This document shows, piece after piece, positions 6,160-38,657 of a stretch of 42,240 nucleotides of DNA. A model generated the notes under the pieces. That model saw only the letters and a program-made list of their open reading frames with translations. It was not told where the DNA came from and did no database searches. This DNA comes from Akkermansiaceae bacterium. Lineage in GTDB: Bacteria; Verrucomicrobiota; Verrucomicrobiia; Verrucomicrobiales; Akkermansiaceae. The stretch lies in the NCBI GenBank assembly GCA_903930425.1, contig CAIYYV010000148.1:1-42240 (forward strand), in the 5' to 3' direction. Each line of letters starts with the position of its first letter. Position 1 is the first letter of the stretch. A program made the translations under genes and the position numbers.

Positions 6160-6771
6160 TCAAAGTTTCTGCAGCATCTTCTTCAGCCAGGGAACCAGAT
6201 CCTCGCGGGTGTTGGCTTGTTGGATTTCCCGCCGGGTGATGAGGCCCCGTCGCAGGCCTTCTGCTAGCGCCTGGCGCAGCATGTCCGGATCCGCGTCACC
6301 CGAAGCCGCCGAGTCGATGATCGCGCGCATCGGCAGGGTGAGCGCAAAGCCATGGTCCCGGGTGATCTCGTGCGGCGCAAGTCGCGTCTTGTGCAGAACG
6401 AGCACTGACGGCGTTTGGCTGTTGCGGCGGAATCCCGGCGGCACGGTCATGTGGAGCTTCGAGGGATTGGCGTCCGAAAGATGGCGCAGGGCCAGTGCCG
6501 TGGTGTGCGAATACACCCCCTGTGGTTCGCCACGACGATCCCTTGACCACAACGCCCAGGGAACCAGATGAGCTGTTTCCGTGGCTGGAAATTGCCGCAG
6601 CCGGTAAATACCCCTGTGTTCCCGGACCCAGTTGCCCGCCTTCACATGGTAGCTGTGCGTGCTGCGTGCGAACCCCGCCTCAAGCGCCTGTGCCATGGTG
6701 AAATACCCGTCCTGGCTCTCCGCGATGGCGAAAAGCTGGTTGGAATCAGAATGGGAGCTGGCTGCACACAT
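6160..6771 (-). CDS. abiEi: AbiEi-like antitoxin / transcriptional regulator (type IV TA)
   Basis: N-terminal winged-helix-like region and AbiEi pattern (GYFTMAQALEAGFARSTHSYHVKAGNWVREHRGIYRL, GVYSHTTAL); start may be 6801 or 6771. Confidence 0.8.
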   Translation of the reverse strand: MCAASSHSDSNQLFAIAESQDGYFTMAQALEAGFARSTHSYHVKAGNWVREHRGIYRLRQFPATETAHLVPWALWSRDRRGEPQGVYSHTTALALRHLSDANPSKLHMTVPPGFRRNSQTPSVLVLHKTRLAPHEITRDHGFALTLPMRAIIDSAASGDADPDMLRQALAEGLRRGLITRREIQQANTREDLVPWLKKMLQKL

Positions 6772-12912: not shown

Positions 12913-13141
12913 GATTGGCGATCGGATGAGTGCGTTTGTTTTGACAGAATTGATTTAACGCGTCAATCAAAAAAGACGACGCACATGCATTTTGTTTGTT
13001 TAAGGTTTGCGAAGCGCTGCCGGCAGTTCGCTGACCGGAGTGATGCGGTTATGGAGCGCTTTGGCATTATTCCGTGGTATCTGGCAGATGTCCTAGTCAT
13101 CGACTCCACTCTATTCAAACGAACGGCAGGGGGCATTCCCG

Positions 13142-14248
13142 TCAGAGGCGCGGAGAATTCCACGGCAATGTCGGATCGAAGAAATGCGCACCGCGTCCCG
13201 AATCGCGCAGGCTCCGCCATTGACCGCGGGTGACTTCGAGCAGGCTTTGAAAATCAAAGCTGATGTCTGTTGGCGGGCGTCCACCATCGGTAAATGACCA
13301 GGTGACATCCAGAGGGGTTGGGATACCCGGTGCGTATGTGAGACGGACCAAAGCCTCTTTTGCTCCGCGTTCTACGGCCTCGACGCAGGCGCGGCGTGCG
13401 GCATAGGCACCGGCGCGGTCGATGTGCGAAAGGTCCTTGCCGCTGAGCGCGCCACCACCGAGTGGAATACGGGGACCATAGTAGTCCATCACCGGCTTTC
13501 GTCCGGTCTGACCGTTATCACTGTTGGAGCCACCGTCATAAAATGGGCCGTTCGGATTGATGAGCAGACGTGTGGTGCTCCGGTCGAAGCACCAGCGGGA
13601 ATCCGCATCTGCGACGGAACGCAGGGTTTCCAAAACGACGCTCATCGCCGCGCCTTGAAAATCCATGAGTGGAAGACCGGGTTTTTGTTGGAGAGTGACG
13701 AGCACCGTCGGGATTCGCCAGACGGCAGGCTTGTCGCGCAATGGCGGTGTTTCGTCGAGGTGGACGATGAGCTTTCCATCCGGACCGTGACCTTCAAGAT
13801 AGCCCCCAAAGGCACAGGCTGCATCCATCGACTCGCGCAGACGATGCGCAAGAAAATGTTCCGGGCTGAGGAAATGGGTGGCGGCATCGTAACCGGCCCA
13901 ACCGATCACCACCGACTGGTCGTTGATGTGCTGTGTCCATTCGCGCGGGTCGCGCACCTGACGGCAGACGTGGTCATGGACCTGATAGCGGTTGGCATCG
14001 GTTGAATTGCCGGGTGTGTATCCGGTTTCCTGGCCCACCGTGCGCACCACATCGGCAAAGACAGTTTCCAGAGGCTCACGGGTGGCGGTGGATCCCGTGA
14101 GGAAAACCTGGTCGGACCAGACGCCGACTTCGATCTGTCCGTAGGCCTCGGGGTCGCGCTCATAGGCATGATAGAGAATGCGGTCGGCGATCTGGTCGCA
14201 GAACTTGTCGGGATGGCCGCGCAGGACGGCTTCACTGGTACGGATCAT
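13142..14248 (-). CDS. metK: divergent S-adenosylmethionine synthetase
   Basis: GHPDK, NDQSVVIGWA, LLINPNG, GGSNSDNGQTGRK, GGGALSGKDLSHIDRAGAYAAR motifs; ATGA overlap with the upstream vWA gene. Confidence 0.88.
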   Translation of the reverse strand: MIRTSEAVLRGHPDKFCDQIADRILYHAYERDPEAYGQIEVGVWSDQVFLTGSTATREPLETVFADVVRTVGQETGYTPGNSTDANRYQVHDHVCRQVRDPREWTQHINDQSVVIGWAGYDAATHFLSPEHFLAHRLRESMDAACAFGGYLEGHGPDGKLIVHLDETPPLRDKPAVWRIPTVLVTLQQKPGLPLMDFQGAAMSVVLETLRSVADADSRWCFDRSTTRLLINPNGPFYDGGSNSDNGQTGRKPVMDYYGPRIPLGGGALSGKDLSHIDRAGAYAARRACVEAVERGAKEALVRLTYAPGIPTPLDVTWSFTDGGRPPTDISFDFQSLLEVTRGQWRSLRDSGRGAHFFDPTLPWNSPRL

Positions 14249-15645
14249 GGGGTGACGGATGTTTGGATGAGGGGGAGTCGGGTGGAGGGGATGGACTTTT
14301 TTTCGAAGATCTCGCTGCTGCCATTGGCGGAGACGAGCACGTGAATTTCCTCACCGAGGGCATGAAGTTGCCTGAGGAATTTTGGGTCCGGTGGTTCGAT
14401 ATATCCATCGGTGATGATCAGGGATTTGCCGGGGCGATTTTTCACGATGTGTTCCAACACATCGTTGAAGCAGGTGCCGCCCGTGGTGTTAGTTTGCAGT
14501 TTTCCATCGATGATGCGGGCCGGAAAAACGCCATTTGAAAACGCGTTAAAGGGCGAGCGGATCCAACCCCGGAGTTCCCAAAGCAGGCCGGTGAGCAGGT
14601 TGAGTTCCGCTTTCATCGATCCGCTGACGTCGAGGTAAACATTGGCGCGACCACCCGGCTTGAAGCGCTCCGAAAACCACGCGTATTCGGGTAAAATAGG
14701 ATTCCACAGGGCACGCAGGGCGGCGCGGCGGTCGCTGTTAGTGGCCACGGGCAGACCATACGAGAGACGTCCGTCGTGCACCGGTCGGCTGCGCGGATCT
14801 GGCACCAGCAAGCGGCGGAGAATTTCGCGGGTTGCGATGCGCCAGCGGCGGTTAGGGTCGCTGGCAGCCCATTCTGCCGTGGCCGGTGGTGGTCCGAACC
14901 CATGGCCAAAGGGACGTCTGAAGATCCCCTCGCCATCCAGTTCCTTGAGGAGTCGTTCAAGGCGGGCGCGATTGGCAGGATGCATATCATCATCCGAATG
15001 GTGGCCGCCGATGAACAGCGCTTCGCCCGGGAAAACGATGTCGAGCGAGTCGAAGAGATCGAGCACATCGTCCGCCAACACCGTGGCACGGGCCAGTCCA
15101 TTGCGGAGTTGGTGGATAATAAATGCCCTTGACTTGTTGCATCCAAGATTCTGAGAAATAAGGCTGGATAGGGCACAATGTGCAGCCTCGTTATCTTTCG
15201 GCCTGATGTCCCCGGGTGCGTATGGGCGCAGCAACCAGAGCGGGTCCTCGTCGCTAGTCGGTTGATAAAACCTGCGGAAGAATTCGCCTCCGGCCTCTCC
15301 CAGTTCACGCTGGACGATGTGATTGATCACCGCATCCAGAGCCAGGTTGGTGGCGGGGTCGTTTTTCTTGAACAACTTGGTGTGGCCTAACAAAACATGC
15401 AGGAATTCATGCAACAGCATCGAACGAAAATCGTCTTCGGTTTGAACATGCTTCGCGACAAAGTCCGGATTGATCAGCAGCAACGGCGGATCATCGCGCA
15501 GGGTAACGGCCAGCGTTGGCACCTCGCAGGTAAATACAAGTCGCGCCACCGAGAGCAGGCCCTGACAGGCGAGTGGATTTTCCTCAACGAAGTCGGCGAG
15601 GACCGCTTCGAAGTGCTCTCTATCAAAAATGTTGTTATTCATCAT
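14245..15645 (-). CDS. DUF2201-like protein: HExxH metallopeptidase domain plus vWA domain
   Basis: LLHEFLHVLLGHTK and MIDAS-like VYLDVSGSMKAE; start trimmed to MMNNNIFDREHF. Confidence 0.82.
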   Translation of the reverse strand: MMNNNIFDREHFEAVLADFVEENPLACQGLLSVARLVFTCEVPTLAVTLRDDPPLLLINPDFVAKHVQTEDDFRSMLLHEFLHVLLGHTKLFKKNDPATNLALDAVINHIVQRELGEAGGEFFRRFYQPTSDEDPLWLLRPYAPGDIRPKDNEAAHCALSSLISQNLGCNKSRAFIIHQLRNGLARATVLADDVLDLFDSLDIVFPGEALFIGGHHSDDDMHPANRARLERLLKELDGEGIFRRPFGHGFGPPPATAEWAASDPNRRWRIATREILRRLLVPDPRSRPVHDGRLSYGLPVATNSDRRAALRALWNPILPEYAWFSERFKPGGRANVYLDVSGSMKAELNLLTGLLWELRGWIRSPFNAFSNGVFPARIIDGKLQTNTTGGTCFNDVLEHIVKNRPGKSLIITDGYIEPPDPKFLRQLHALGEEIHVLVSANGSSEIFEKKSIPSTRLPLIQTSVTP

Positions 15646-16225
15646 CACTGCGAGTGAAGGTTTCCGCGTCGCATTGCACGAGGCGGACGGAACGGGCGAG
15701 GCGGCGCTCCGACCAGATGACCGGGCGCTCCGGGCTGAACAGGGCACCGCAGCACTTACCGAGCACGAGGGCCGCCTTGCGGTTGTCTGCGGAGGAATCC
15801 GAGATGCTGTCAGGAGGGGCATCGCTTGGTGTGTCGATCACCAGGGCCGGTTGGTCGGGAACTTGGTCACGCATCGAGTCCCACGCCTGATCGGGTGAGT
15901 TAAAGCCAGCCTTGCGCAGCAACAGCATCGCCAAATTGCGAAACCCGCCGGGTTCATGGCGGGGTGACATTTCATAGTGCCCCAGTGGTCGCAAGCCGAG
16001 CGTTTCCGATCCTTGACTGAGCATGCGGCTGACGATCGGTGTGGCGACGACCCGTGAGCGGGGACCTCCTGAATTGGCAATGATTTCCGGACGCTGCCAT
16101 TTACTATGGCCGACCCATGTGGCTCCGGGCCCTGCGATTGCTGGCCTGGCAATCCCTAACAGTGCCCACCGGACCGACATGAATGCGCTTCCAATAGCAT
16201 ATAGATGATATATCAGCCAATTCAT
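15635..16225 (-). CDS. hypothetical protein with hydrophobic N-terminus
   Basis: ATGA overlap with the MoxR gene at 16222-16225 and short overlap with the vWA gene; MNWLIYHLYAIGSAFMSVRWALLG. Confidence 0.65.
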   Translation of the reverse strand: MNWLIYHLYAIGSAFMSVRWALLGIARPAIAGPGATWVGHSKWQRPEIIANSGGPRSRVVATPIVSRMLSQGSETLGLRPLGHYEMSPRHEPGGFRNLAMLLLRKAGFNSPDQAWDSMRDQVPDQPALVIDTPSDAPPDSISDSSADNRKAALVLGKCCGALFSPERPVIWSERRLARSVRLVQCDAETFTRSDDE

Positions 16226-17673
16226 GGTTTTCGGATAAACGGTTGGACAGCGCGGATTGCCCGGTCGAGTTTCTCTTCGAGCACTGCGGGATCTGCAATG
16301 GGCCACTCCCTCACAATGCAGTGATAGAATAACTGGCGGGCACGCTCACGGCGGTGTGGCGGTAGCGACTCCAGTTGCATGGCGCATGCACTCAGCGACG
16401 GGTGCGGATTGCCTTCCGGCTTGAGATCCAACCTCAGCCTCCACTTCGCCTCACCGTCAATTTCAAGAATGGGTGCGGCGAGTTCAATAATTGCGGCCAT
16501 GCCTTCTTCACCAAAGGTATCTGCATGTTTCTGAACCACCGGAAGAAGCGCCATCGCGAGCACGGCGGCCTCCGTCTTCGGAAGTTGGACCAGTGACTGT
16601 CGGATTGCCAGCGTCGCGGTGTCGCGAGACGGAGCGCCTTGAAGCAGCAACTTGCAGCGGTTAGCAATGTCAGTTTCGAGCAGCACACGACTGAGCCAGC
16701 GCACGTGAGGACCTTGGGTGAGCAGGTCCCATGCGGCAGCGTGGGCAGCCCGGATCACAGGATCCGCCACCCGCACTCCCCAGGCGAGTTGCGGCAGGGA
16801 GCACGTGAGACCAACGCGAAAAACATCACGATCGGGCTGGCCACCACTGATAAGTGTCAGCGCAACCAGATTGCGCGACAACATGCGCACACGGCGTGGT
16901 GAAAGCCGGACCCCCGGTTGCAGGAATTGGGTTGCCACCACCGAGGTGTAGGCCAGCGCGGTTTCGTGCAATTCATGTGAGGCATTGGCGAAGCGGCGGC
17001 GTCCCTCCTCAACCGCGCGTGCCAGTCCGACCTGATCCATGGTGAGCACATCCACGCCGCGGGCATCGGCCACACTGCGACGATCGGCTTCATTAAGCCC
17101 CGCCCAATCCGGCACCTCGATCACGAACGCGAAACGATCCGCCAACGCCTGATCGAGTGCCACAGAGCCCTCATAGAAATCGTCGCTGTTTTCCGCCTCA
17201 CACGGGTTCATCGCGGCCCAGCGGTAGCGGAGTCGGGGCAGATCGAGACCTTGAATTCGGCGCTCGTGGACCAGTGAGAACAAGCGGTTTTGATGCTCGG
17301 GTTTGCAGCGGCTCAACTCGTCGATGAGCACCGACTCCGCCTGCCAGATAGTCGCCGGAGTTTCGATATAACGGATCTCCGCGCCATCGTTGAATGGGAA
17401 TGGGAAACCGACGAGGTCATCGAAGGCTATCAGACTGGCGTTGTAGTGACGGTGCTCAAGTCCGAGAGCTTCGCTGAGAGAGTTGAGTAGAAAGGTTTTG
17501 CCGGTGCCGGCCTTGCCGATCAGCAGCAACGGGTCGCCGGTGACCAATGAGGCGAGGACCACGTCCTCCACCGCATCATAACCGTAAACGCCAAGAGTGC
17601 GCAGCCAACCGGCAGGCAATAGGCGGGATGTTTGGGGGAAATGATCGAGTCGGGTGATTGGCGTGGTTTTCAT
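16222..17673 (-). CDS. MoxR-like AAA ATPase
   Basis: GKAGTGKTFLLNSL Walker A, VLIDELSRC Walker B, RWAAMNPCE; start MKTTPITRL in ATGA overlap. Confidence 0.88.
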   Translation of the reverse strand: MKTTPITRLDHFPQTSRLLPAGWLRTLGVYGYDAVEDVVLASLVTGDPLLLIGKAGTGKTFLLNSLSEALGLEHRHYNASLIAFDDLVGFPFPFNDGAEIRYIETPATIWQAESVLIDELSRCKPEHQNRLFSLVHERRIQGLDLPRLRYRWAAMNPCEAENSDDFYEGSVALDQALADRFAFVIEVPDWAGLNEADRRSVADARGVDVLTMDQVGLARAVEEGRRRFANASHELHETALAYTSVVATQFLQPGVRLSPRRVRMLSRNLVALTLISGGQPDRDVFRVGLTCSLPQLAWGVRVADPVIRAAHAAAWDLLTQGPHVRWLSRVLLETDIANRCKLLLQGAPSRDTATLAIRQSLVQLPKTEAAVLAMALLPVVQKHADTFGEEGMAAIIELAAPILEIDGEAKWRLRLDLKPEGNPHPSLSACAMQLESLPPHRRERARQLFYHCIVREWPIADPAVLEEKLDRAIRAVQPFIRKP

Positions 17674-17903
17674 GCGGCGAGCGTGCGGGTGGTTTGCAAA
17701 CAGCGACCGTCCAGGATGGACTCGCGGCGGTGGCGGGCGAGCGCCAGATCGCCGGTCCTGAGGTTCACGCGGACGCGCTCGGCGGTGCTGTCGGCCAGAT
17801 GGAACGTGCCGTGGAACCACCATGTGCCGTGGTTATTCCAGAGGTGATGATTGGGCCCTGCGGTCTTCTGACGGCAGGAAATGACAGGCTGGTCGGTGTT
17901 CAT
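17670..17903 (-). CDS. small protein resembling a stand-alone integrase arm-type DNA-binding domain
   Basis: 77 aa HGTWWFHGTFHLADSTAERVRVNLRTGDLALARHRRESIL; ATGA overlap with the MoxR gene. Confidence 0.55.
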   Translation of the reverse strand: MNTDQPVISCRQKTAGPNHHLWNNHGTWWFHGTFHLADSTAERVRVNLRTGDLALARHRRESILDGRCLQTTRTLAA

Positions 17904-17905: not shown

Positions 17906-18118
17906 TGATGTCGTTGTTTGGAATGCACGACATCAAGCCCTGGAAACACAAGACGCCCGTCCTGATGACATCAGAGCGGGCGTCTGAAAATTCCAGTGAG
18001 ACGTTTTTCCGGGCAGGCTGTCGTGTTCCTGCCCAGCGCATCGGGGTATTCCCCAAGCACCGTTAATGTCTCGAATCGGTTGCTGGCCCGCCTTGCGACG
18101 GGACCATCTTGATGTCGT
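17906..18118 (-). promoter_or_regulatory. structured 5' leader, candidate riboswitch/regulatory RNA (SAM-clan-like core)
   Basis: Closing stem ACGACATCAAG/CTTGATGTCGT (18108-18118 with 17927-17937); GCAA-tetraloop hairpin 18085-18105; GGGG-AATA-CCCC 18043-18054; GGGCAGG/CCTGCCC 18011-18034; near-palindrome 17951-17985; alternative stem 17906-17914 with 17927-17935 next to the ATG. Confidence 0.65.
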
Positions 18119-18235: not shown

Positions 18236-19501
18236 TTAGGATGCGTTTGAGAACCGCGGTCTATCAATCCGGATTACCTCCCCGAACGGAACATCCGGCC
18301 GACTATGGCTGGTCATGATCCAGAGGACGGGATAAGGAGGCGGCTTAGGCGGGAAAGAACCGAAGCCGTCGGTTAGGTAAATCAGGGCATCGAGCTGAAA
18401 CATACCTTGCCGGAATTGGTCACGGATCCAGTCAAAGACGGGTTCAAAGCGGGTGCCGCCCCCGCCTAGGAATTTGAAGCGATCCAAGCGGGTGGAAGAG
18501 TATTCGTCGAATTCCTCGACTTTCTGGATTTTGGCGTCGCACTGGATGAGTGTGAGGCGGCATTCCGTGGCGGATCGGAGCTTGTCGAGTTCCCCGAGGA
18601 TTGTGCCGAGTTCCCTGTCGGACATGGATCCAGAGGTGTCAACAGCAACCACGATGTGGTTTGGCCCGGGAGCGCCCATTGAGGGCAGATAGATGCCGCG
18701 CCAGATGTGTTTCTTATTAGGGGGAATTAACCGGTAGTCGTCGCGTCTGAGGCCGGTGAAGAAGCGTGAAACGAGGTTGCGCCAAGGGATTTGGCTGCCG
18801 CGCGCCTGCTGGATTTCAGACTCGAAAAGACCGGCAGCGGTGCCGCAGAGTTTATCGCTCATAACCCGGGTGATGGCGATGCGCATGCGTTTGCGTTCAT
18901 CTGCGGATGGAAACTCGCGGGCGCGAGCACTCAGGCCTCGCAAGTCATTCGGCGCAATGTGGAGATCCCAGCCCTTGGGGGCGGATGCAGGCACTTCCGC
19001 GCCACCGTCAGGTGTTGAGGATTGTTCGTCGCCGGCCCCGGATGAGGACTGAAATTTTCCCACAACGTCCTTGGAGGTATCCTGTTTCGACTGTTTGGCA
19101 AGCCGCTCGTAAATTTGCTCTGCTGTCATTCCGCGGAAAACCCGGTCGAGAAGCCCGACTTTGGGCATTTTAAGGCCAAGTTCCACCAGCATGAGGTTAG
19201 TGGCATAATCGATGGCCTGATTCCAAAGATCGTGATGGCGCTGACCGCGGCGATCGATGTGACCGAGCACGCAGTGCATCACCTCGTGGGCAAAGACAAA
19301 GGAGATCTCCTCATTGGGGAGGCTGGCGCAATAACCGGGATTCACATAAATGTAGTAGCCGTCTGTCGCCATGGTGTCGCACCAGCCCATTCGAGCGGCG
19401 TTAATCACTGGAAAGCGGGCAATGGCCGAAGCGAGATAAGGCTCGCTAAGCATCAGCTTGACGCGTGCCTGGAGAATCTCGTGTGGCAGGTCTTCCGTCA
19501 C
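18236..19501 (-). CDS. DUF2201-like protein: HExxH metallopeptidase domain plus vWA domain
   Basis: FAHEVMHCVLGHIDRRG and IVVAVDTSGSMSDRELG; ATGA overlap with the upstream MoxR gene. Confidence 0.88.
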   Translation of the reverse strand: MTEDLPHEILQARVKLMLSEPYLASAIARFPVINAARMGWCDTMATDGYYIYVNPGYCASLPNEEISFVFAHEVMHCVLGHIDRRGQRHHDLWNQAIDYATNLMLVELGLKMPKVGLLDRVFRGMTAEQIYERLAKQSKQDTSKDVVGKFQSSSGAGDEQSSTPDGGAEVPASAPKGWDLHIAPNDLRGLSARAREFPSADERKRMRIAITRVMSDKLCGTAAGLFESEIQQARGSQIPWRNLVSRFFTGLRRDDYRLIPPNKKHIWRGIYLPSMGAPGPNHIVVAVDTSGSMSDRELGTILGELDKLRSATECRLTLIQCDAKIQKVEEFDEYSSTRLDRFKFLGGGGTRFEPVFDWIRDQFRQGMFQLDALIYLTDGFGSFPPKPPPYPVLWIMTSHSRPDVPFGEVIRIDRPRFSNAS

Positions 19502-20481
19502 AGGATGATGTCCTTATGCTGCTTGATGAATTCAAGAATCTTCTTATGGGTGGCAAACCTCGGGTGTTTCTGAAAAATGTTGCGCAGCAGGAGGACACCT
19601 AACTCTGGCTTGAACCGGAGCACCAGGCTGGCAGCGGCGTCGAGCATCTTCGGATCCTTCACTGCTACGGTGACGTAGGAAATGAGTGCATATTGGTCGC
19701 CGAGTTTCCCCGGAAGTTTTGCGTTTTCCGGATCATTGAGGATTGCCCTGATGGCGGCTTCGCTAAGCGCGTGGTCGCAGTATCCCATGAACTCGATGGC
19801 GGCCGCTTCGCCCACGGTGCCGATCAGAATATCCTGGGCATCCTTAGCCTTGCCAAGGGCGACGAGAATATCAGAAACCATTTCCCAAGACCTCGGAGTA
19901 GGAAAGCCCCGGTCAGAATGATCCATGTTGAAGAGCAGCTCCTGCCGCGTACTGAGAAAACCGAGCACGAGCGGATGAATTTCCCGGTCGACCGCCCACT
20001 TACGCCAGTCATCAAAGTCGACCTCGTAATCGAGATGAATGAATCGGTTGGAGAGCGCGGCGGACATGCGGAAGGTCAACGATGAATCCTCGGCACGGTT
20101 TCCGGCAGCGAGGATGCGCCACTTGTCGGGAAGGATGTATTCGCCGACACGGCGGTCAAGTGTTAGCTGATAGAGACTGGCCTGCACCAATGGAGGAGCA
20201 GCATTCAATTCATCGAAGAACAAAATCCCCTCGGAGTTGGGATCGGAGGGCAGGAAGCTCGGTGGACACCAGCGGGCCTTGTCATCGCTGACCGTTGGAA
20301 TACCACGCAGGTCGGTGGGGTCGAGCAACGATGCCCTAATATCGAGCAACTGAATTTTTCTGGCTTGCGCGACCTTACGGACGATCGATGATTTCCCAAC
20401 ACCGGGAGGTCCCCATATGAAAGCAGGCCAACGGGTAGACAGGATGTGGTCAATGACTTCTTCGACGCGGGTAGGTTTCAT
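19498..20481 (-). CDS. MoxR-like AAA ATPase
   Basis: IWGPPGVGKSSIVRKVA, ILFFDELNAAPP, RILAAGNRAEDSS; start MKPTRVEE. Confidence 0.88.
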   Translation of the reverse strand: MKPTRVEEVIDHILSTRWPAFIWGPPGVGKSSIVRKVAQARKIQLLDIRASLLDPTDLRGIPTVSDDKARWCPPSFLPSDPNSEGILFFDELNAAPPLVQASLYQLTLDRRVGEYILPDKWRILAAGNRAEDSSLTFRMSAALSNRFIHLDYEVDFDDWRKWAVDREIHPLVLGFLSTRQELLFNMDHSDRGFPTPRSWEMVSDILVALGKAKDAQDILIGTVGEAAAIEFMGYCDHALSEAAIRAILNDPENAKLPGKLGDQYALISYVTVAVKDPKMLDAAASLVLRFKPELGVLLLRNIFQKHPRFATHKKILEFIKQHKDIIL

Positions 20482-21413
20482 TTGAGATGATCGAATACGA
20501 GGTTGATCCAATGCGGATGGGAGCCCAGCCAGTTGAAAATTGCCAACTTGTCCTCATCTTCAAGCGGAATGGGAATGCGGGCCGTGGTAGACATCCAAGC
20601 CGTATACCCTGGGGTGTGCCCAATAACGGATGGAAGAGTCACAGGTTTGTCCTCAGGCATTCTCAGACTAACATAAATTGTGGGGATCTCAGTTGAGCTA
20701 GCATCGCCTTTCAGAATAAGAGTGGTTTCGGCAACCATGTGCGCCATGATCCGGATCATCGATTCTGGGCTGCCAGATAGGATGTGGGCCTTGCCGTCGT
20801 AACACTCGACCCGCAAACCCAACTGGTTGAAGGATTCGCTTACTCCCTGAATTCTGCTCCACTGCTGCAGCTGTCTGGCAAACACGGCGGGACTTGAAGC
20901 GCACTCGGGGAGCGGGATGACGATACGGAAGCCCTGATCTTCAGAGTAAAGCGCGGCCCCTAGTCTAACAGAACTACCCATTGTCCCCGCAGGTATCAAC
21001 GAGGGAATGAACGCCCAACCCGCATAGGTTTGGTTGCGCCGACGTCCATGTGCGTAACGTTCTGAATAGTATGACTTGAGATTATTGGTGAGAACCAGGC
21101 CTCCACTGCAACCTAGAGTTTCGCGTGATACGATCCTGAAGCGGGTTTGTCTGTCCAGACCGGAAAAGGCAACGCGCGCGAGGAATGCCGCGCATTCGAT
21201 GTCCTCTGCGGTGATTGAAAACGGCTCAAGACGAGTTCCCTTCTCAGAGGTGATTAGCCGGCGGACTTCATCTTCTGCGGGCATGTCACTGCTCTGCCCA
21301 ATCCAATCGCCGAACAATCGCCGAAACTTTTTCCTTACCTGTATTTTAGGGTGATAGAAAGCAGCCGTAACAGCCAGTCGAAAAACCTCGGAATCGTAGT
21401 CTGGATCACTCAT
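20478..21413 (-). CDS. hypothetical protein of the retron/MoxR operon
   Basis: 311-aa ORF overlapping both neighbours by ATGA junctions (21410-21413, 20478-20481). Confidence 0.75.
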   Translation of the reverse strand: MSDPDYDSEVFRLAVTAAFYHPKIQVRKKFRRLFGDWIGQSSDMPAEDEVRRLITSEKGTRLEPFSITAEDIECAAFLARVAFSGLDRQTRFRIVSRETLGCSGGLVLTNNLKSYYSERYAHGRRRNQTYAGWAFIPSLIPAGTMGSSVRLGAALYSEDQGFRIVIPLPECASSPAVFARQLQQWSRIQGVSESFNQLGLRVECYDGKAHILSGSPESMIRIMAHMVAETTLILKGDASSTEIPTIYVSLRMPEDKPVTLPSVIGHTPGYTAWMSTTARIPIPLEDEDKLAIFNWLGSHPHWINLVFDHLK

Positions 21414-22207
21414 GATTCCGCCTTTCGTTTATCTTTGATCGACTGACTGACTGAATGATCGGCGATTGTCGCATAACGTTCCTCGATCTCATATCCGACC
21501 GTCCGGCGCCCCATTTCGACGGCCATGGCCAAAGTCGTTCCGGACCCTGAAAAAGGATCAACCACAAGATCTCCCGGCTCGGTGAATAGGGAGATCATGC
21601 GGCGGACCATGGCTTTTGGAGCCTTGTGGGGGTGTTCCCTGCGCGAACTCGCCGGTGCCATCACCCACAAAGGTGATGATATTTTTTTCAGTTCATCCCC
21701 ACGCATCTCTACCAGGCCGTGGGCCCGATTGTCACATTCCTGATCTGAAAAAATCAGTATCTCTTCCACCTCATCGGTCCGGAACGTGCCGACGACCGGA
21801 TGATCCAGAAACCGCCTGATTGAGGAACGTTGATTGAATTTGTGGCAGAAAACCCTGCCGAGGAGGTTGAAACCGGTGGACTCGGCCATCTCACGGTGAA
21901 GTGCCACCAGCGAGATCAGGACTCCGGCGTAATGAATGTCCTTGATCTGGATGATCAGATAGCCTCCAGGCCTTAGTATCCGCCTGACTTCCTCATAAAC
22001 CGGGCGGAGTCCGAGCGCAAACGAAGTGATCTCATGCTTTACGCGCGACAGTTCCACTTGATCCCGAACCGGTTTTTTCACCAGTTCCTCAGTGGCATCA
22101 GAAAAATAAGGAGGACCGGTGAACACGAGGTCGACCTCACCGTTGCGAAGGATCTTCATGTCGGATCCGTCACCGAAGACGAGTTGGTATTGGCCGTCAC
22201 GTTTCAT
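21410..22207 (-). CDS. DNA methyltransferase, beta class (N4-C or N6-A)
   Basis: Motif IV-like DLVFTGPPYF precedes motif I DLVVDPFSGSGTTLAMA. Confidence 0.87.
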   Translation of the reverse strand: MKRDGQYQLVFGDGSDMKILRNGEVDLVFTGPPYFSDATEELVKKPVRDQVELSRVKHEITSFALGLRPVYEEVRRILRPGGYLIIQIKDIHYAGVLISLVALHREMAESTGFNLLGRVFCHKFNQRSSIRRFLDHPVVGTFRTDEVEEILIFSDQECDNRAHGLVEMRGDELKKISSPLWVMAPASSRREHPHKAPKAMVRRMISLFTEPGDLVVDPFSGSGTTLAMAVEMGRRTVGYEIEERYATIADHSVSQSIKDKRKAES

Positions 22208-22218
22208 ATCAGGAATGC

Positions 22219-25068
22219 TTATTTGCTGCCTGTCATTTTGAATTTGAGCGCCAACGCCTCTTGAGGTTGCACTAGGTTGAGGAAAGCAAGGCGTCCCAAT
22301 AGCTCATGCGATGACATCGGTTGGCCCTGCCAGTGCGGGTTCCCATCCTTGGTCATCTGATGGACAGCCGCGCGCAACCGACGACGCATCCCGCGAGGAA
22401 GGTTCGTTTTTTCGTTCACCACCAACCCAGTCACCATCTGCCTCCTGCCGCGGCGGAAAATGTTGGTTTTCTTCTCCTTCAGCTGATAACCTAATTGGGC
22501 AAGAATCCGCTTAGCGAACGGAAGGATCTTGATCGCATTCGTGTCACCCGAGAACGTGAGGTCGTCCGCATAACGGGTGTAGGTGATGCCGTTGTCTGTC
22601 GCGGCCTTGGTAAGCGACGCATCCGCCGGTCGTAACACTAGGTTGGCGATGGCCGGACTGGTCGGGGCACCTGTGGGAAGACCTCCCTTGTAACTGCAAA
22701 TATCCGCCACCACATGGCGGGCGCCTTCGGACAACCGGCCGTCAAGGAGGTGGGAACAGGCTTTCAGAATCAGAGGATAGCGAGTACTGGGAAAGAAGGA
22801 TTCGACGTCGACATTAACAACGCAGGACTTGCCTACATGAGGGGTGGCGTTTGTGAGAATCGAGCAACCACGTTTGAACCCATGGGCGGAGGGGTGAATG
22901 AACACCTCGTCAAATCCATTTCTGAGAATTCTCCGTTGGAGGCGCTTCAACGGAGCGTCGGGAACAGTGACCACACGGCTGCCACCGGATTTTTTCGGCA
23001 GGGGGTGCGTCTGATAATGGTGATCAAATGAGTGGCCGCCACGGTCCTTGTCCGCGAACTTCCATCGCTCGGCGCATAACGAGACAAGGTAGCGGGCATC
23101 GCGAAGCGAAAACGCCAGCGCCAGTTCGAAGGCAATCGCCAAGGTGGGCTTATTACGCCAAGTCTTGTGGGCCCAAGGGACCATTTCCCTCAGCACGGAG
23201 CGGCTTATCCCTAGGGGGGCATAGGGTTTCTTTTCTTCCAGAATACCCTTTAATTTCTTTTGAAACGCGGGGTTGGCCAAACGCGCCAGCGCGTCAAGCT
23301 TTGCGATCCTGGCGAGTAGGTCGGGGCGTTCACGACGAATCAAGGGCCGGATCATTCGTGAGTACTTTGGCTTTTGAAGATACCGTTCCCAACAGGTTAT
23401 GCCACCGGGTTCCGTGAAATCGAAAATCGCACCGATTCGCCTGCGTCCATTCTCCGCCAACACCGAAGTCAAGAGCTGATGGAAATCCTCTTCGGAAATC
23501 TTCCATCCAATGGTTTCTCCGATCAGGTTCGGGCAGGATCGAAGCAAATGGTACCGTAAGCGCTGCAGAAAAATAGGGGTCCGCGAACTGGTGGCGTGCA
23601 AGGCAAGACGGTGCCGCCATTCGCAAATCCACGATTCCTCACTCTCGAAAAGCCGAACCATCAGGTCCTTCGGGGCATGACTCTCGATGGCGGTGAAGCC
23701 TTGAGCGGAGTCACAATATTTCTCGATCACTTCCCGGAATTTGGGGATATCCGAACACTCCGGCTTCCAAAAGGCGAAGGCGCATTCCGATTTGGAGACT
23801 AACCTCAGGAGAGCAGTCGCGTCAGACTCCTCCATGAGATCCTTGATGAAGCACCCGAAACACTGGCGGCTTGTTCTAGGGCCAATCAATTCTCGAAACA
23901 CTTTTTTTCGTAACTGCGGATCGTTCAGGACCAGATTCCGGATGCGTTTCAAAGCAGACTTTGAACCACATTTCTGGATTGCCTCAAACCAGTCCGCTGA
24001 TGAAACGTCGTGCGCGAGTTCCTCGATCTCATTATGATTCATGGAACCAATGACAGAAAGTCGGTCAGTGACTGGTTTCGAAAAGAAAGCCAGTGCGTTC
24101 CCCGTTCGGTTCTCAACCCGTGTTCTTGCTCCATCTGGCAATTTCAAGGCGGTGCCATGTCTCTGCCGTGCGGGATTCTTCTTCCTTTTCCGCAGAGAAG
24201 ATAGGATGAGGTTCGAATGATCTCCGACATCGCTGCGCTGCAATAATTGTGCGACAGCGGGATGTTGAAAATTCCTGTTGCTTAGACATTGGAAAGCAAT
24301 AGGCAATGTTTTGCTTAACCAGACATGGACCGCAATGGCTTCCGGGGACTCTTGAAAAGCCAATGGATTGGATAGAATCTTGATGTGTAAATCGGAAGTC
24401 AGGGCAACTTTCGAAAAATCCACGTCGGCAAGCAGCCATCGTTTGACTTCAGACGAGAGCTTGTTGAAATCGACCTCGTCAAGCGGAGACAACCCCTTTA
24501 AAAAGCCCTCTGCCAGAAAGATCTGCCGTGACGCCTTGCCGGGCCTTATCTTGCTTTTCGCGAAGACTTCCCTGAGCAGTTTGAACGTGTCTCCGTCACG
24601 CCGGGCTTCCGACTTACGAAAGAACTCCCGCTCAAATTCCAGCAGCGGCAGCGGGTGCCCCCCGAAAAACGATGCGAGACTTTTGGTTGCCGGAAGTTTT
24701 CCACCAAGCATAAGCCAACGAAAAAAATCGCTCCTCCATCCGGGAGGCGTCAATGCCTTGATCAACTCTTGATGTGCCGACTCGGGCTTAAAGGGCTTTT
24801 GGTTTTTCCAGTATTCCAACAAGCTACGCAAAAGCAGCAAATTCTCGGCGTGACTTGTGGCCACTAGATTCCTCAAAACAAACAATGGGCTGAGGTTAGC
24901 GTCTTTCGCAAAATTCACAATCTGGCGGCGCAAATCAGCGGCGCATTCCTCAATCTCCTTCCTGAGCCTCTTTATAGATGGCGGATCAGTAACGGCGCGT
25001 TTCTGGATTTTTTTTGTGATGCTGCGGACCGCCAAATGGAGCTCAGTCAGGTTAGCGGTCATAAACAT
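22219..25068 (-). CDS. retron-type reverse transcriptase with long N-terminal extension
   Basis: 949 aa; C-terminal RT motifs LPKKSGGSRVVTVPDAPLKRLQRRIL, TNATPHVGKSCVVNVDVESFFPS (retron NAxxH), GLPTGAPTSPAIANL, YTRYADDLTFSG, QMVTGLVVN (retron VTG motif). Confidence 0.92.
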   Translation of the reverse strand: MFMTANLTELHLAVRSITKKIQKRAVTDPPSIKRLRKEIEECAADLRRQIVNFAKDANLSPLFVLRNLVATSHAENLLLLRSLLEYWKNQKPFKPESAHQELIKALTPPGWRSDFFRWLMLGGKLPATKSLASFFGGHPLPLLEFEREFFRKSEARRDGDTFKLLREVFAKSKIRPGKASRQIFLAEGFLKGLSPLDEVDFNKLSSEVKRWLLADVDFSKVALTSDLHIKILSNPLAFQESPEAIAVHVWLSKTLPIAFQCLSNRNFQHPAVAQLLQRSDVGDHSNLILSSLRKRKKNPARQRHGTALKLPDGARTRVENRTGNALAFFSKPVTDRLSVIGSMNHNEIEELAHDVSSADWFEAIQKCGSKSALKRIRNLVLNDPQLRKKVFRELIGPRTSRQCFGCFIKDLMEESDATALLRLVSKSECAFAFWKPECSDIPKFREVIEKYCDSAQGFTAIESHAPKDLMVRLFESEESWICEWRHRLALHATSSRTPIFLQRLRYHLLRSCPNLIGETIGWKISEEDFHQLLTSVLAENGRRRIGAIFDFTEPGGITCWERYLQKPKYSRMIRPLIRRERPDLLARIAKLDALARLANPAFQKKLKGILEEKKPYAPLGISRSVLREMVPWAHKTWRNKPTLAIAFELALAFSLRDARYLVSLCAERWKFADKDRGGHSFDHHYQTHPLPKKSGGSRVVTVPDAPLKRLQRRILRNGFDEVFIHPSAHGFKRGCSILTNATPHVGKSCVVNVDVESFFPSTRYPLILKACSHLLDGRLSEGARHVVADICSYKGGLPTGAPTSPAIANLVLRPADASLTKAATDNGITYTRYADDLTFSGDTNAIKILPFAKRILAQLGYQLKEKKTNIFRRGRRQMVTGLVVNEKTNLPRGMRRRLRAAVHQMTKDGNPHWQGQPMSSHELLGRLAFLNLVQPQEALALKFKMTGSK

Positions 25069-25069: not shown

Positions 25070-25294
25070 GAGTGTCGAGAGGGTCTGCGCTTACTTCAGT
25101 CTATTCTCTCATCGCAAGGCGAGAAGGAGCGGTAAAAGTCCCGCTTCTCGCCACTTTTACCAATGGCTTGCCGCAGGTAGTGTGGCGAGAAGCGGGACTT
25201 TAGCAGTTCCGATACCCGCCTGACCCCCGGCCAATTAGCAACTCTGGCTAAACACCAGATAATCCAAAAACGACTGTGACCCATCTCGACACTC
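25070..25294 (-). ncRNA. retron msr-msd noncoding RNA
   Basis: 11-bp a1/a2 pair GAGTGTCGAGA (25284-25294) / TCTCGACACTC (25070-25080); msr stem-loop TCTGG-TGTTTAG-CCAGA (25243-25259); msd hairpin AAAGTCCCGCTTCTCGCCAC / GTGGCGAGAAGCGGGACTTT (25135-25154 with 25182-25201); ends 2 nt before the RT start. Confidence 0.88.
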
Positions 25295-28767: not shown

Positions 28768-29085
28768 CTAATGAAGAGGCGGGAGAGGGATGAGATTTGG
28801 AATGTTGGATTTTGGATGATGCATTAGAAGCGGACCAGTTACGGGGAGGGGCGGAGCAATGAAAGGCGAACATTGAACGTCGAACTTCCAACGTCGAACC
28901 GAACAGTTGTCGCGGTCCAATTCCCCATCTGCAAAAATATGTTTGATGTGCTCGCTAATCGTCCCCTTGGCCTTGCCGAAAAGCTCGGTGAACTGCTTCT
29001 GGCTGAGCCACACCATTTGGTCCTCCAGCCGCACGTCCAGCTTGGTGCGCCCGTCTTCGCTTTGGTAGATTAGAAATTCACTCAT
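28768..29085 (-). pseudogene. truncated RhuM-family gene
   Basis: First ~55 codons closely match the RhuM gene at 29672-30652, then unrelated low-complexity sequence. Confidence 0.7.
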
Positions 29086-29675
29086 GGCTTCTTTATCTTG
29101 CGGCCGGGCGGTGGCAATTTCTTCAACTCCTTCACGGCCGCCTCAAAATCTTTCTCCACCTGCGACGGCGCGGCGAGTTCTGCTAGGTGGAATTTCTCAA
29201 ACTCCTGCTCCGCCTTCCGCAGCGCCTGCTCATGGGAAAAATAATTCCCGCCGCCGCGTTGCTTCAGCCGTTCATCGTCCATCGCAAAGCCTTTGACGAT
29301 GTATTCCCGAAGCCGCTGGGTGGCCCAGATGCGGAATTGCGTGCCCCGAAGTGATTTCACCCGGTAGCCCACCGAGATGATGACATCGAGATTGTAGAAC
29401 TCGATTTCCCTCGTGACTTGTTTGTCGCCCTCGATTTGAACTGTTGCAGATTTTGCAACAGTTGCCTCTCGCTTCAGTTCACCGTCACTGAACACGTTGC
29501 CGATATGCCGGGAAATGACCGATTTGTCCCGCTGGAACAGGTCGGCCATTTGGTTCAGGGATAGCCACACGGTCTCGTCCTCCAGCCGCACTTGCAGCCG
29601 GATCCGGCCGTCGTCCGACCCGTAAAACAGGAATTCACCGCCGGGCGGCGGGGGGGATGGGATCAAGTCGTTCAT
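29082..29675 (-). CDS. RhuM-family protein
   Basis: VRLEDETVWLSLNQMADLFQRDKSVISRHIGNVFSDGEL ... FYNLDVIISVGYRVKSLRGTQFRIWATQRLREYIVKGFAMDD. Confidence 0.8.
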   Translation of the reverse strand: MNDLIPSPPPPGGEFLFYGSDDGRIRLQVRLEDETVWLSLNQMADLFQRDKSVISRHIGNVFSDGELKREATVAKSATVQIEGDKQVTREIEFYNLDVIISVGYRVKSLRGTQFRIWATQRLREYIVKGFAMDDERLKQRGGGNYFSHEQALRKAEQEFEKFHLAELAAPSQVEKDFEAAVKELKKLPPPGRKIKKP

Positions 29676-30652
29676 GGCGTTTCGGGAGGTGGTTGGAGTT
29701 GCTGGATAGCCCGATCAAAGTCGGATTCCAGATAATGATCCTCAGTGCGGCGGAACTCTGTAAATTCGTGCTCCGCGTGTTCCTTGGCCAGTTCCGCGGA
29801 GACTCTGCCCGCACTCTGCAGCACCTCGCGGTCATTGAGTGTTAGGAAGCCTTCTAATTTGGTGATCCAGTCCTGCATTGCCATCGGCACGCGGCGCTCC
29901 GCCTGCGACTGGGCAAAAATGAGATATTGCTCCACCAGATTGCCGAGGGCGCGGAGTTCCTGCTCATTCAGGTAGTTCTTGGCGACGGACACGTCGGCTT
30001 TGCGGATGCGCGCCCCTTCCCAGTGGGTGAGGCCCATGTTTGGCTGACACCGGTCGGCGCGAGTGACAATCACCTCGGCGGCGGTCTGGCCGTGAATGGC
30101 GTAGTGGACCTTGTTCTGCACCGTGGCGAAGAAGGTCTGGGTCAGCGGGTGATTGCCGTCGTAGTCGATACTCGTCGCGTAGATATCCGTGATCTTTTGG
30201 TAAAACCGCCGTTCGCTGGTGCGGATGTCCTGAATGCGGCGGCTCAGTTCCTCAAAATAGTCATTCCCCACTTGCGGGTTTTTCAGCCGCGCGTCATCGA
30301 GAACGAATCCCTTGATGATGTATTCCTTCAGCTTATCCGCCGCCCATTGCCGGAAACGCACTGCCATCGGGCTGCGCACGCGGAAACCCAGCGCCAACAC
30401 CATGTCGAGGTTGTAATGGGCAACCTCATACTGCTTGCCGTCAGCGGCAGTTGTTCGGAATAGCCGAACAACTGAATCCTCCGCCAATTCCCCGTCTTCA
30501 AAAATGTGCTTGATGTGCTCGCTGATCGTCCCCTTGGCCTTGCCAAATAGCTCGGTGAGCTGCTTCTGGCTGAGCCACACCGTCTCGTCCTCCAACCGCA
30601 CGTCCAGCTTGGTGCGCCCGTTCTCGCTTTGGTAGATTAGAAATTCACTCAT
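29672..30652 (-). CDS. RhuM-family protein
   Basis: MSEFLIYQSENGRTKLDVRLEDETVWLSQKQLTELFGKAKGTISEHIKHIFEDGEL ... YNLDMVLALGFRVRSPMAVRFRQWA; AAGAGG ribosome site before MSEF. Confidence 0.85.
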   Translation of the reverse strand: MSEFLIYQSENGRTKLDVRLEDETVWLSQKQLTELFGKAKGTISEHIKHIFEDGELAEDSVVRLFRTTAADGKQYEVAHYNLDMVLALGFRVRSPMAVRFRQWAADKLKEYIIKGFVLDDARLKNPQVGNDYFEELSRRIQDIRTSERRFYQKITDIYATSIDYDGNHPLTQTFFATVQNKVHYAIHGQTAAEVIVTRADRCQPNMGLTHWEGARIRKADVSVAKNYLNEQELRALGNLVEQYLIFAQSQAERRVPMAMQDWITKLEGFLTLNDREVLQSAGRVSAELAKEHAEHEFTEFRRTEDHYLESDFDRAIQQLQPPPETP

Positions 30653-30673
30653 GGCCTCTTTTCCGGTTCTTCT

Positions 30674-30694
30674 CTTGCGTCTTGCGTCTTGCGT
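30674..30694. repeat. tandem heptamer CTTGCGT x3
   Basis: Direct reading of three consecutive CTTGCGT units. Confidence 0.85.
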
Positions 30695-30696
30695 CT

Positions 30697-32364
30697 TCAA
30701 GTCTTGTGTCTTATCTCCAGCACCGTCAGTAAATGCCTTGCCCGAGAATACGCGACGTAAAGGTGCTCTTTGCGGAAATTCTGACCGACCGGTGGCACGT
30801 CGGTTAGAACCATTGCGTCCGCTTCCAGGCCTTTGAATTTACGGACGGTGGAAACGAGGATCGCTTTGCCCGCCCGCCATTGCTCCAGATCTTCTGTGAG
30901 CGGCACGCCGGCCAAGTCCGCCTTGCCGTGCAAGCAACCTGCCTCGGGACTATTTGCTGTCACGACGGCGATCTGATTCGGCTTCAAACCTTCATGGAGC
31001 CAAGTCTTCACCTGCTTCTCGGCGGCCTGTGCTTGGGCTGCTCCGCTGTCGATTTTCAGGATCACCGGTTCACGTCCCTCTGGTGATCCGGGGCGCACAG
31101 GAATCACTTTACCGATCACTTCACCGCATTGTTTGGAAATTCGCTCGGTGTTGCGGCAATTGGTCGCCAGCGAAAACGGCTGACCCAGGGCTGGCATCAA
31201 CTGGCTCTCCGCCCAAAAAATCCGTTGCGCCGGGTCGTAGAAAACATACAGCGGCCCCTCGGTCATCCCGGCATTCACCAATTCAAGCCCATCCCACCAG
31301 CTCGTCTCAAAGTCCTGCCCCTCATCCACCACCACCGCATCAAAGCGCTTGGTCAGCCGGTCCAGCGCCTGCTCGAACAAACGCGGCGCTTCCACATTCC
31401 AGAAGCGCGGATCATTGACCACAGTAGGCCACGGAATTTTTGCCTCCTTCACCCACTCCGCGCACAAGCCGTGGTAATGCCGTATCGTGATCCGCTGTCG
31501 GTATTCCTCCGGCAATTCATCCAGCAACCACTCGGCCAGCATTCTGTTGAAGCAGACAAACAGCACGTCCTTGCCCTCATCCGCGAAGCGCCGTGCACGG
31601 ATCATCGCCAGCTTCGTCTTGCCCGATCCGGCCACGCCCTCGACCACCGCACGGTCCCTGTTGCCGAGGAATTCAAGCAACTGCGACTGTTGCTCGGTCA
31701 GCCGGAAAATCTGCCGCTCCTGGTCTTCCACCTCCCGCCACAAGGCCGGAGCCAGGCGGAAGGTCGATGTCAGTGCGTTCATGATGCCGTCGAGCGCGGC
31801 CTTGCTGATGCCATCGGCGGATGGCTTGAAGGCATACGACTGAAACAAGGCCTCTATCTTTTTGCCAATCTTGTCCAAATCGGCCGCCCCTATCAAATTC
31901 TCCCGCACCACCCCCGGTGGCAGTGTTCCTTGAAAATCGCAATCGGGAAACACCACCGCCCGCGTCCGAACAAACGGCAGCTCGGCCCCGGGAAACGAGC
32001 GGTCCTTCACCAGTTTCTCCAGCGTGAACAAATTGCGCGACGCCTGCTCAAACGGATCTTTGACCGCATGCGTCGCGCCTCGTCGGTCCCAACGTCGGGT
32101 CGCGGGATCATACAACATCTGCCCGCCCTTCACCTCCAGCACCACGATCCCGTAGCGCGGGTCCACGATCACAAAATCCGCCTCGCCCTCGCGGATCACC
32201 TCGCCCTGCCACGGCTTGTCCAGATCGCGCTCTTTGCGCATCCACGGGTAGCTGTGAAAGATCCGCACGTCTTTCGGCAGTTGCGTGCACAACACCTCCG
32301 CCACCTTGCGCTCAGGGGCGTTTTCAATGGCAGCGGGATCGTAGTTGGGAATGAGCTTGGCCAT
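30697..32364 (-). CDS. NERD-domain UvrD/Rep-like helicase
   Basis: NERD-like GEADFVIVDPRYGIVVLEVKGG; VEGVAGSGKTKLAMIRA, VVVDEGQDF, KFKGLEADAMVL, VAYSRARHLLTVL helicase motifs. Confidence 0.9.
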   Translation of the reverse strand: MAKLIPNYDPAAIENAPERKVAEVLCTQLPKDVRIFHSYPWMRKERDLDKPWQGEVIREGEADFVIVDPRYGIVVLEVKGGQMLYDPATRRWDRRGATHAVKDPFEQASRNLFTLEKLVKDRSFPGAELPFVRTRAVVFPDCDFQGTLPPGVVRENLIGAADLDKIGKKIEALFQSYAFKPSADGISKAALDGIMNALTSTFRLAPALWREVEDQERQIFRLTEQQSQLLEFLGNRDRAVVEGVAGSGKTKLAMIRARRFADEGKDVLFVCFNRMLAEWLLDELPEEYRQRITIRHYHGLCAEWVKEAKIPWPTVVNDPRFWNVEAPRLFEQALDRLTKRFDAVVVDEGQDFETSWWDGLELVNAGMTEGPLYVFYDPAQRIFWAESQLMPALGQPFSLATNCRNTERISKQCGEVIGKVIPVRPGSPEGREPVILKIDSGAAQAQAAEKQVKTWLHEGLKPNQIAVVTANSPEAGCLHGKADLAGVPLTEDLEQWRAGKAILVSTVRKFKGLEADAMVLTDVPPVGQNFRKEHLYVAYSRARHLLTVLEIRHKT

Positions 32365-32368
32365 GGGG

Positions 32369-35300
32369 TCAGGGGACTTCCGTCCAAATCGTGAGGTTGT
32401 TCATTTGTTGATCTGTTAGCATGATGCCTTCCTCAAGCCCGACGCCATTTAGAAGCCTCAGACGTTTGGCCGGCGCGCCAGCCGTTTGGGTACGTTCTGT
32501 GAGAAACCACTCGCCATAGGCCCATGATCCGCCCGGTGTTTTCACCAGCACCCATTGCCTTGCTTGCGGCAGTGCTTGCATTTTCCCCAAGTCCACGTCG
32601 GCCCCATCGTCCCGTCGGAAGCGGAAACCGTCAGGAACGTTGGCTCCCAATGCATTCCTATCAATGGTTCCCGCAGGCAAAGTTCGTTCTTGCAGTAGTT
32701 CATCTAAAACCTTCGCCGCATCATGGCGATCAAGCAGATTGTGGTCCCGTTGGTTTCGGTGACTCCGGAGACAGCGGTAGCAACTTGCTGCAGGACGCAA
32801 TCCTTGTGCCTCGGCGGTAGCAACCAGTTCTTCTCGTGTCGCCGGCATCGCGTTTACATCTACTTGGCCACCGCATATGCAGGTAAGACACAGATCTTTT
32901 GCCGCTTGAAGGATGGTCCGGATCAATACCGCATTCCGTGCATCGGCGACCTGGTTACCCGGATTACCGTTCAGAACCAGATCGAGCACCGCGCCGCCGC
33001 CGCCCGTGGAGTCGTCGAAGAACACCAAACCGAGTTCACCATTGGCTCCGTCACCTGGCTGCACCAGTCCCTGAATGTCGCGCTCTTCGATATTCTTCAC
33101 GCGCGCCGTAGCACGCAGGATCGCCTGCATCGCAGAGCGTAGGGCAGCATCCAAACGCCTGCGACCATTGCAGTTTTCGGCCGCCCAGCGGTTCATTAGA
33201 CTACCTTGCGCGAAAAGCTCCGGGACGAACATCCATCCCGCAATGTCTGTCCGAACTTCATGACAGAGCGAAAAGCGCGCCCCTCCTTGAGGGAAACCCC
33301 TGTAGCCGGGGCCTTGATTGATGTAGGTGATCGAGCCGGACTCTGATTCCTTGGTGATGAGCCCGGTATTGGGGACGCGGCGCCCCTGAGGAAGGAAGGC
33401 GCGGGTATGCACGTGGATGGGCGTGCCCCGTTCACCGCGAACTTGGAAGGAGGGAGTCGAGACATTTGCTTGGAACGCATCGGGAAAACACAAATTGACC
33501 GGATTGAGTCTATCACCACAGTAGCGACACGGGTGCGGCGCTTGCTGAACATTGGGATCAATTCCCCAGTCGGGCTCGTGGCAGCCGTCGCAAATCCATC
33601 GCCGATCCAGATTATTCACGACATCGGTGAAATTTCCATTGTCCCAAACGACTACCTTGGCCGAGCGATAGCGCCGCTTGTCGGCTACTACAACCTGCTC
33701 GGGCGCATACTCGTAAAGACCAATCTTGAGATCCCGCTCCAGCTTCACATTTCGTCCATACGAATCGCCGACATCCGGCAGGAGCTGGATCACATCGACC
33801 GGGAAGCCGTACTTCGGCAGCACCCGGCAGCGGCTCAGCCATGTGATCGTCTGCTCGCGCAGGAGGTGCTTCTGAAAGCCACTCACGTGATCCTGTCCGT
33901 CCGGCAGGTAGTGGCGGATCTGGGCTTGCACCGAGCACCGGCGAAGATCCCTGCGGTTCTGGTTTGCATCGTTCGCCTCCACGAGGCCATTTGCACCGAC
34001 AGCGGGCCAATTCGGGCCTCCAAGCAGGCGATACTCTCCCTCGTTGCCATCATCGGCAAGCGGGTATGGGCAAATCGCCTGCAAGTCGAGAGGCTGTTGT
34101 TTGATTTGCCATATCAGATCTTTCGCTACTTCGTAAACAAGGCCGTCTTGACCAATCCCATCAATGGCTTTCAGGTAGGTTTGAAGGGACGCTGACCGCT
34201 GGTTCAACCATTCGCCCAACTCTTCAATCAATGGTGCGAAGCGCATCGTGACCGGATACGGACCATTTCCAGAATAACTTGATGCAACGGTCACTCCGAC
34301 AAAAAGATCGCCGACCAACTCCCACCGCCGGTCCTTTGTTTGACCGGGCTGTTCTTGAACCTGTCCGTTGTTCCGTGTCATCTTTATAGCATTGGCAGCA
34401 CTAGCTCGTTGTCCAACGCTTAGCCATTGTAGGAAATCGTGGAATGCCTCCGCACGGCAATGGCGGGCGCGGTAAATCTGATTTTCAAGGTAAATCTTGG
34501 GTTCCTCCAGCAGAGCGAAAAGCAGTTCCTCTGGATGCTCCCAGAAGTAGCGATCATGATCCCTGCGCCCTAGGAATGTCAGCACGTAAGAGGGAGATCC
34601 CGGACGCCGACCGGCGCGACCCGCCCGCTGACGGTAGTTTGCCACCGAGGGCGGCATGCCATTGAGAAACACACAACTCAGATCCCCGAGATCGACCCCC
34701 ATCTCGAAAGTGGTAGAGCAGGAAAGAATGTTGATATTTCCTTCCGCAAAGGCCCGCTGATAGTCGCTGCCCCGCGACTTGGCAAGTTGAGCAGTGTGTT
34801 CTTCGATGCGTAGGGGAATCAACTCAGGCGCGGCACCCGGATCATCAGCAACAGCATGAATCAAAAGGGCGTCTGGATTAAGACGATGCCTGCCGGTGTC
34901 TCCAATGGCTATCAAAACGTTGAATTGGGTGAACTGCGGCCAAAGCACGCCGAGCCATATGGATGCCTTGTCGTTGAAGAACTCGCGGATGCTGCCAGCT
35001 ACATTTGTTTTGCATGCTTGGCTGGCATTTTGCGCGATGTTCGCAGGAAAGGATCCAGCACCTTGCGGATTGTTATTCGCACTGCAGATCGTCTTCACGC
35101 ATTCGGAGAATGTTCCCGAGTTGTAAAGGCGTTGAACCAGCGCTGTGGCCGGAGCTGTTTGTAGATTGTTATGGCCGTCAAGAAAAGTCCTCAGACCACC
35201 ATGCCAAAACGTGGTCTCTTCGGCAATCACAGCACGCAAGTAATTGCTCAGCTTGGTCGGATTATTGCTGACCCAGCGGTGGGTGCCATCGGCTCCGTTT

Positions 35301-38641: not shown

Positions 38642-38657
38642 GTTAGGTTTTGAACAT

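Follow-up and report, generated by a model that had tools for sequence, protein, structure and literature searches.

The minus strand of positions 25070-25294 in a 42,240-nucleotide stretch of Akkermansiaceae DNA (hereafter the window) almost certainly encodes a genuine retron msr-msd RNA. The evidence for this assignment is comparative and strong, short of experimental proof. The retron reverse transcriptase (RT) and its ncRNA probably belong to one system with the MoxR-type AAA+ ATPase and the vWA protein of the same operon. Tentatively, we propose a new retron type, in which msDNA on a helical-armed RT would gate an AAA+ MoxR-vWA-metallopeptidase with ATP-driven protein remodelling as its output. 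The N-terminal arm of the RT and the operon genes beyond it, which are the more novel side of the locus, did not figure in the first-pass annotation. The features of the locus are collected in Table 1.

Table 1. Elements of the retron locus, with positions in the window.
Feature	Position	Strand	Basis or remark
a1 arm, 5' end of msr, GAGTGTCGAGA	25284-25294	-	Perfect complement of a2
GGGTC, extending the a1 side inwards past a single bulged U (25283)	25278-25282	-	Predicted fold
msr stem-loop TCTGG-TGTTTAG-CCAGA, UUU in the loop	25243-25259	-	Conserved in L076/L084 and L086
msd hairpin, presumed msDNA template	25135-25201	-	Fold; compensatory changes in relatives
a2 arm of the retron ncRNA, TCTCGACACTC	25070-25080	-	0/200 shuffles, as for a1
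RT, 949 aa	22219-25068	-	RVT_1; PADLOC RT_XIII/RT_X best; PDB retron Ec86
N6/N4-type DNA methyltransferase, 265 aa	21410-22207	-	Pfam N6_N4_Mtase, E = 8e-32
U311, function unknown; 4-bp overlap with the methyltransferase gene	20478-21413	-	L076 homologue, E = 2e-7
MoxR-type AAA+ ATPase	19498-20511	-	AAA_5
Metallopeptidase (HEVMH)-vWA protein, DUF2201_N and DUF2201	18236-19501	-	Domain matches
Hairpin followed by TGTGTTT, AGACGCCCG..CGGGCGTCT, probable operon terminator	17951-17985	-	Sequence

The ncRNA sits in a 471-bp gap between the stop of a phosphoesterase gene at 25540 and the start of the RT gene. Its two ends, a1 and a2, had been described as perfectly complementary on the minus strand, and a recheck of coordinates and letters bore this out. 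The placement of a2 directly before the RT also held, but the spacing of 2 nt given in the first-pass annotation did not, since a single base (25069) separates a2 from the RT ATG. None of 200 dinucleotide shuffles contained a perfect long-range inverted repeat of 11 bp, the best reaching 9. The stem exceeds its first description: GGGTC pairs with GACCC (25081-25085), adding five pairs past the bulged U, and the equivalent stem in the homologous locus L076 (see below) is GCCTGCC/GGCAGGC. The candidate for the branching G is 25282 if a1 comprises 11 nt, or 25274 if a1 comprises the whole 16-bp stem; no position is common beyond doubt to the window and the homologous loci L076 and L086. The predicted fold of the 232-nt ncRNA region has an energy of -107.4 kcal/mol (z = -7.3), and 0 of 200 shuffles were equally stable.

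Between the two arms, rechecking recovered both the UUU-loop msr stem-loop and the msd hairpin, whose stem of 20 perfect pairs (arms at 25182-25201 and 25135-25154) encloses a loop of 27 nt (25155-25181). This hairpin is the only perfect short-loop inverted repeat of at least 16 bp in the 42-kb window, the five counts returned by the inverted-repeat scan being five registers of it. A search of the ncRNA against Rfam gave no family at gathering score; the weak microRNA-type matches that appeared were due to the perfect hairpin.

The RT domain occupies approximately residues 680-945, in the last third of the open reading frame (RVT_1), and in comparisons with PDB it matched retron Ec86 with E = 6e-36 and a group II intron RT with about 1e-8. 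An NAxxH/VTG-motif RT behind the ncRNA had been named as a hallmark of retrons; retron RTs were by far the best matches, and the motifs as defined for retron RTs (PMC6868368) were present, with NATPH at residues 740-744 (NAxxH, region X), YADD at 833-836 and VTG at 879-881. Of the PADLOC RT models, RT_XIII scored highest, at 248 bits split over two separate pieces, followed by RT_X at 239 bits. Type XIII RTs in related genomes reach up to 608 bits in matches over the length of the model, so the window RT is a divergent relative. A search for type XIII partner proteins gave no match of any PADLOC retron partner model to the operon proteins at E <= 0.01.

Residues 1-640 of the window RT form an N-terminal extension, which measures approximately 730 and 1000 aa in relatives. 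It gave no significant Pfam or PADLOC match, nor a match to any PADLOC retron partner model at E <= 5, and the extensions of clade members could not be aligned to each other by phmmer. In a low-confidence model of the full-length RT (pLDDT 48), used for helix content only, the extension was helical throughout, suggesting an alpha-solenoid-like scaffold. The PDB fold matches listed for this model were all reverse transcriptases.

Relatives of the RT were sought with the type XIII model in 289 genomes of the window's order, and one closer relative was obtained, locus L076 of genome G403, from another Verrucomicrobiota family, whose 1046-aa RT is 49% identical to the window RT over the RT domain. 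A GTDB-wide scan queried with both RTs returned this locus again (as L084) together with L085, from Burkholderiales, on a contig that begins inside the RT, and L086, from Planctomycetota, with an RT of 1327 aa. In a tree computed without five very long-branched rows, a branch with an SH-aLRT support of 90 separated the four RTs from 127 others, which is supportive and not decisive. On these sequences the RT is a member of a small, deep branch, and the system is rare: within the window's genus just one of 73 genomes carried an RT of clade level, and 390 planctomycete genomes contained no clade RT besides that of L086. The retron-like RTs of viral contigs included none of the clade, and a single-protein pattern search of GTDB contigs gave no matches. 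The msr pattern by itself was too short to be specific in viral contigs.

The ncRNA layout of the window, with a1/a2, a UUU msr hairpin and a long msd hairpin, recurs upstream of the RT in L076 and L086, where a1 and a2 form perfect pairings of 11 and 17 bp, respectively, each beyond 200 shuffles. Because an alignment of the ncRNAs by MAFFT put the stems in wrong places, the helices of the window, L076 and L086 were placed by hand before the pairs were counted. Nine of the 11 a1/a2 pairs were changed on both sides with pairing kept, and 14 of 16 pairs of the outer msd stem carried compensatory changes on both sides, counts that are illustrative, given only three sequences and a choice of helices by eye. 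Outside the msr hairpin the sequences are so divergent that the strong pairing at each locus is good evidence by itself. The first-pass annotation had named homologous loci devoid of a1/a2 covariation as evidence against a retron; L076 and L086 keep the pairing by compensatory changes.

The msr hairpin itself is nearly invariant across the three loci, with one compensatory pair. Its sequence CTGGTGTTTNGCCAG is kept exactly in the window, L076/L084 and L086, and occurred nowhere else among 206 loci, which include more than 100 other retron loci, many with only 1.5-kb flanks. These comparisons point to a conserved hairpin, CTGGTGTTTnGCCAG, that is specific to the RT clade and absent from the 100 or more other retron loci, and it is probably the hairpin recognized by the RT.

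The operon extends over 18236-25068 on the minus strand, in the order RT, DNA methyltransferase, U311, MoxR-type AAA+ ATPase and metallopeptidase-vWA protein; a gap of 11 bp separates the RT and methyltransferase genes, and the later genes overlap by 4 bp or more. Orthologues of the methyltransferase adjoin the RT in L076 and L085, and the gene is absent beside the planctomycete RT of L086. No Pfam family matched U311 at E values up to 5, and a structure model (pLDDT 36) was discarded as unusable. Its homology is statistically supported for two pairs only, window-L076 and L085-L415 (a locus described below), the counterparts in L085 and L086 having been placed by position and weak alignment. 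The window MoxR is approximately 50% identical to its counterparts in L085, L086, L415 and L416. The window, L085, L415 and L416 all retain the HExxH motif of the metallopeptidase. In L086 the gene at 5319-6656 (plus strand) has HNIIH at this motif, and this copy is therefore probably catalytically dead. The hairpin at the end of the operon was not listed by the pattern scan.

Other genes of interest flank the operon. After it, on the same strand, positions 11890-17823 contain another MoxR-like AAA gene, a protein weakly matching DUF2201, and S-adenosylmethionine synthetase-like and ARPP-1 genes, possibly another conflict module; the second MoxR-like set (14245-17823) was considered as a part of the operon and rejected, approximately 560 bp and the terminator-like hairpin intervening. 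Upstream of the retron lies a defence island (29082-42197, minus strand) with a DruE-like 2090-aa helicase, a NERD-UvrD helicase of the kind listed by PADLOC as DRT-associated, two RhuM genes (the one scanned matches PDC-S05) and a 1179-aa protein that gave no Pfam or PADLOC match.

The linkage of MoxR and vWA to this RT recurs in the clade. Gene order in L085 is RT-methyltransferase-U-MoxR-vWA, as in the window; L076 shows RT-methyltransferase-U311 and then the contig ends; and in L086 the order is MoxR-vWA-ncRNA-RT-U, with MoxR-vWA upstream of the ncRNA. Among 80 GTDB retron loci with flanks of up to 10 kb, both MoxR and vWA were present in L085 and L086 only. The pair was also found at two burkholderial loci devoid of an RT nearby, L415 (7142-10473), with U-MoxR-vWA, and L416 (8896-11286), with MoxR-vWA and an assembly gap just upstream, the genes at both loci being of the same subfamily. 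The MoxR-vWA module is therefore not strictly tied to the retron: as these loci indicate, it can stand alone and is joined to the retron of this clade. On five IMG/VR contigs (L334, L383, L394, L400 and L402), a retron-like RT is preceded on its own strand by MoxR and vWA genes, at a distance of no more than about 8 kb. These were considered as relatives and rejected, the four upstream regions checked having repeats of only 7-8 bp, and they were left uncounted because a long a1/a2 was lacking and several of the RTs have no VTG.

Free-standing U-MoxR-vWA modules speak for the reading that an ordinary retron merely happens to precede an unrelated MoxR-vWA module of housekeeping or conflict function, and that its effector is the N-terminal extension of the RT. 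MoxR-vWA pairs are, moreover, common in bacteria and phages, and RT-effector fusions are known, as in the RT-Toprim of retron Eco2 (PMC12405507). Against this stand the same neighbours in three phyla despite the swapped order in L086, the overlap of the genes, and the finding that, within that genome set, no retron locus beyond the clade has such a pair. We consider this reading rather unlikely, though worth keeping in view.

Two further readings concern the retron itself. That the locus is a decayed, non-functional relic could be suspected from the methyltransferase, whose motif IV is GPPY in the window versus SPPY in relatives, and from the presence of the RT in a single genome of the genus; but the five frames are open, the catalytic residues of the RT are intact, the RNA stems are perfect and the terminator-like hairpin is in place, which makes decay highly improbable. 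It is hardly credible that the RT is another ncRNA-using enzyme, DRT-like or derived from a group II intron, with an upstream RNA that only resembles msr-msd. The missing Rfam family and the type-specific NCBIfam retron cut-offs, which the window RT did not reach, would fit such an enzyme, yet NAxxH, VTG, the a1/a2 covariation and the UUU msr hairpin are all present, and the scores of retron models far exceed those of DRT and intron models.

Among known systems, the Ec86 RT has approximately 320 aa and no large N-terminal extension, and we know of no MoxR-vWA pair in its operon. Ec86 (Retron-Eco1), the best PDB match of the RT domain, shares with the window a1/a2, a UUU-loop msr hairpin, an msd hairpin and NAxxH/YADD/VTG (PMC6868368). 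PADLOC types XIII and X supply the top-scoring RT models, but no retron partner model fits the other proteins of the window. The MoxR-vWA ternary (VMAP) systems (PMC7159879) likewise couple a MoxR AAA+ with a vWA protein in a conflict context, but the RTs discussed there belong to diversity-generating retroelements, not retrons; in the window, by contrast, the vWA protein is a metallopeptidase of the DUF2201 type, and U311 takes the place of the third gene, no VMAP or beta-propeller third component having been found. The same two families as in the window form a phage tandem of MoxR and metallopeptidase-vWA (phrog_1297, phrog_1314), for which a role in virion assembly has been proposed (PMC7824862). 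Unlike the window, the phage contigs carrying a MoxR-vWA pair had no long a1/a2 near their RTs in the four upstream regions checked. A full-text literature search, in which subscription titles are sparse and whose comparison lay outside the accessory-gene list of the 13 retron types, found no paper pairing a retron with MoxR; the word retron appears in the MoxR paper only as a passing mention in the section on diversity-generating retroelements, and a jumbo phage genome paper matched by words.

Retrons comprise 13 types, classed by effector and operon structure (PMC12548924), and in most of them the control of the effector by msDNA is unexplained. RT-msDNA complexes keep effectors switched off until the msDNA is disturbed by a phage (PMC12548924; PMC13405049), and a phage methyltransferase is a known trigger (PMC12548924). 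For the proposed MoxR-vWA retron, we infer msDNA synthesis, a role in defence, the identity of the effector and its trigger. The ncRNA would close through a1/a2 pairing, region Y at the C-terminus of the RT would bind the UUU hairpin of the msr, and the RT would start synthesis at the 2'-OH of a G that closely follows a1; the msDNA copied from the long hairpin would remain linked to the RNA. The complex of RT and msDNA would then act as the sensor, and, by analogy, the helical N-terminal arm is probably a scaffold holding U311 and/or the MoxR and vWA-metallopeptidase proteins. The output would lie with MoxR/vWA-metallopeptidase, as ATP-driven remodelling or proteolysis released once a phage disturbs the msDNA. 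Given HNIIH in L086, remodelling by MoxR and vWA is likelier than proteolysis to be the common output. The methyltransferase would be an accessory that may mark msDNA or host DNA.

If the proposal is correct, this output would be unlike the nuclease, NADase, membrane or nucleotide-modifying toxins of retrons; it would constitute a new class of retron output and connect two conflict systems that have been studied apart. As to how retron effectors are held, the large N-terminal arm is a concrete candidate, and the divergent RT and ncRNA pair, with its clade-specific msr hairpin, widens the set available for the production of single-stranded DNA in cells.
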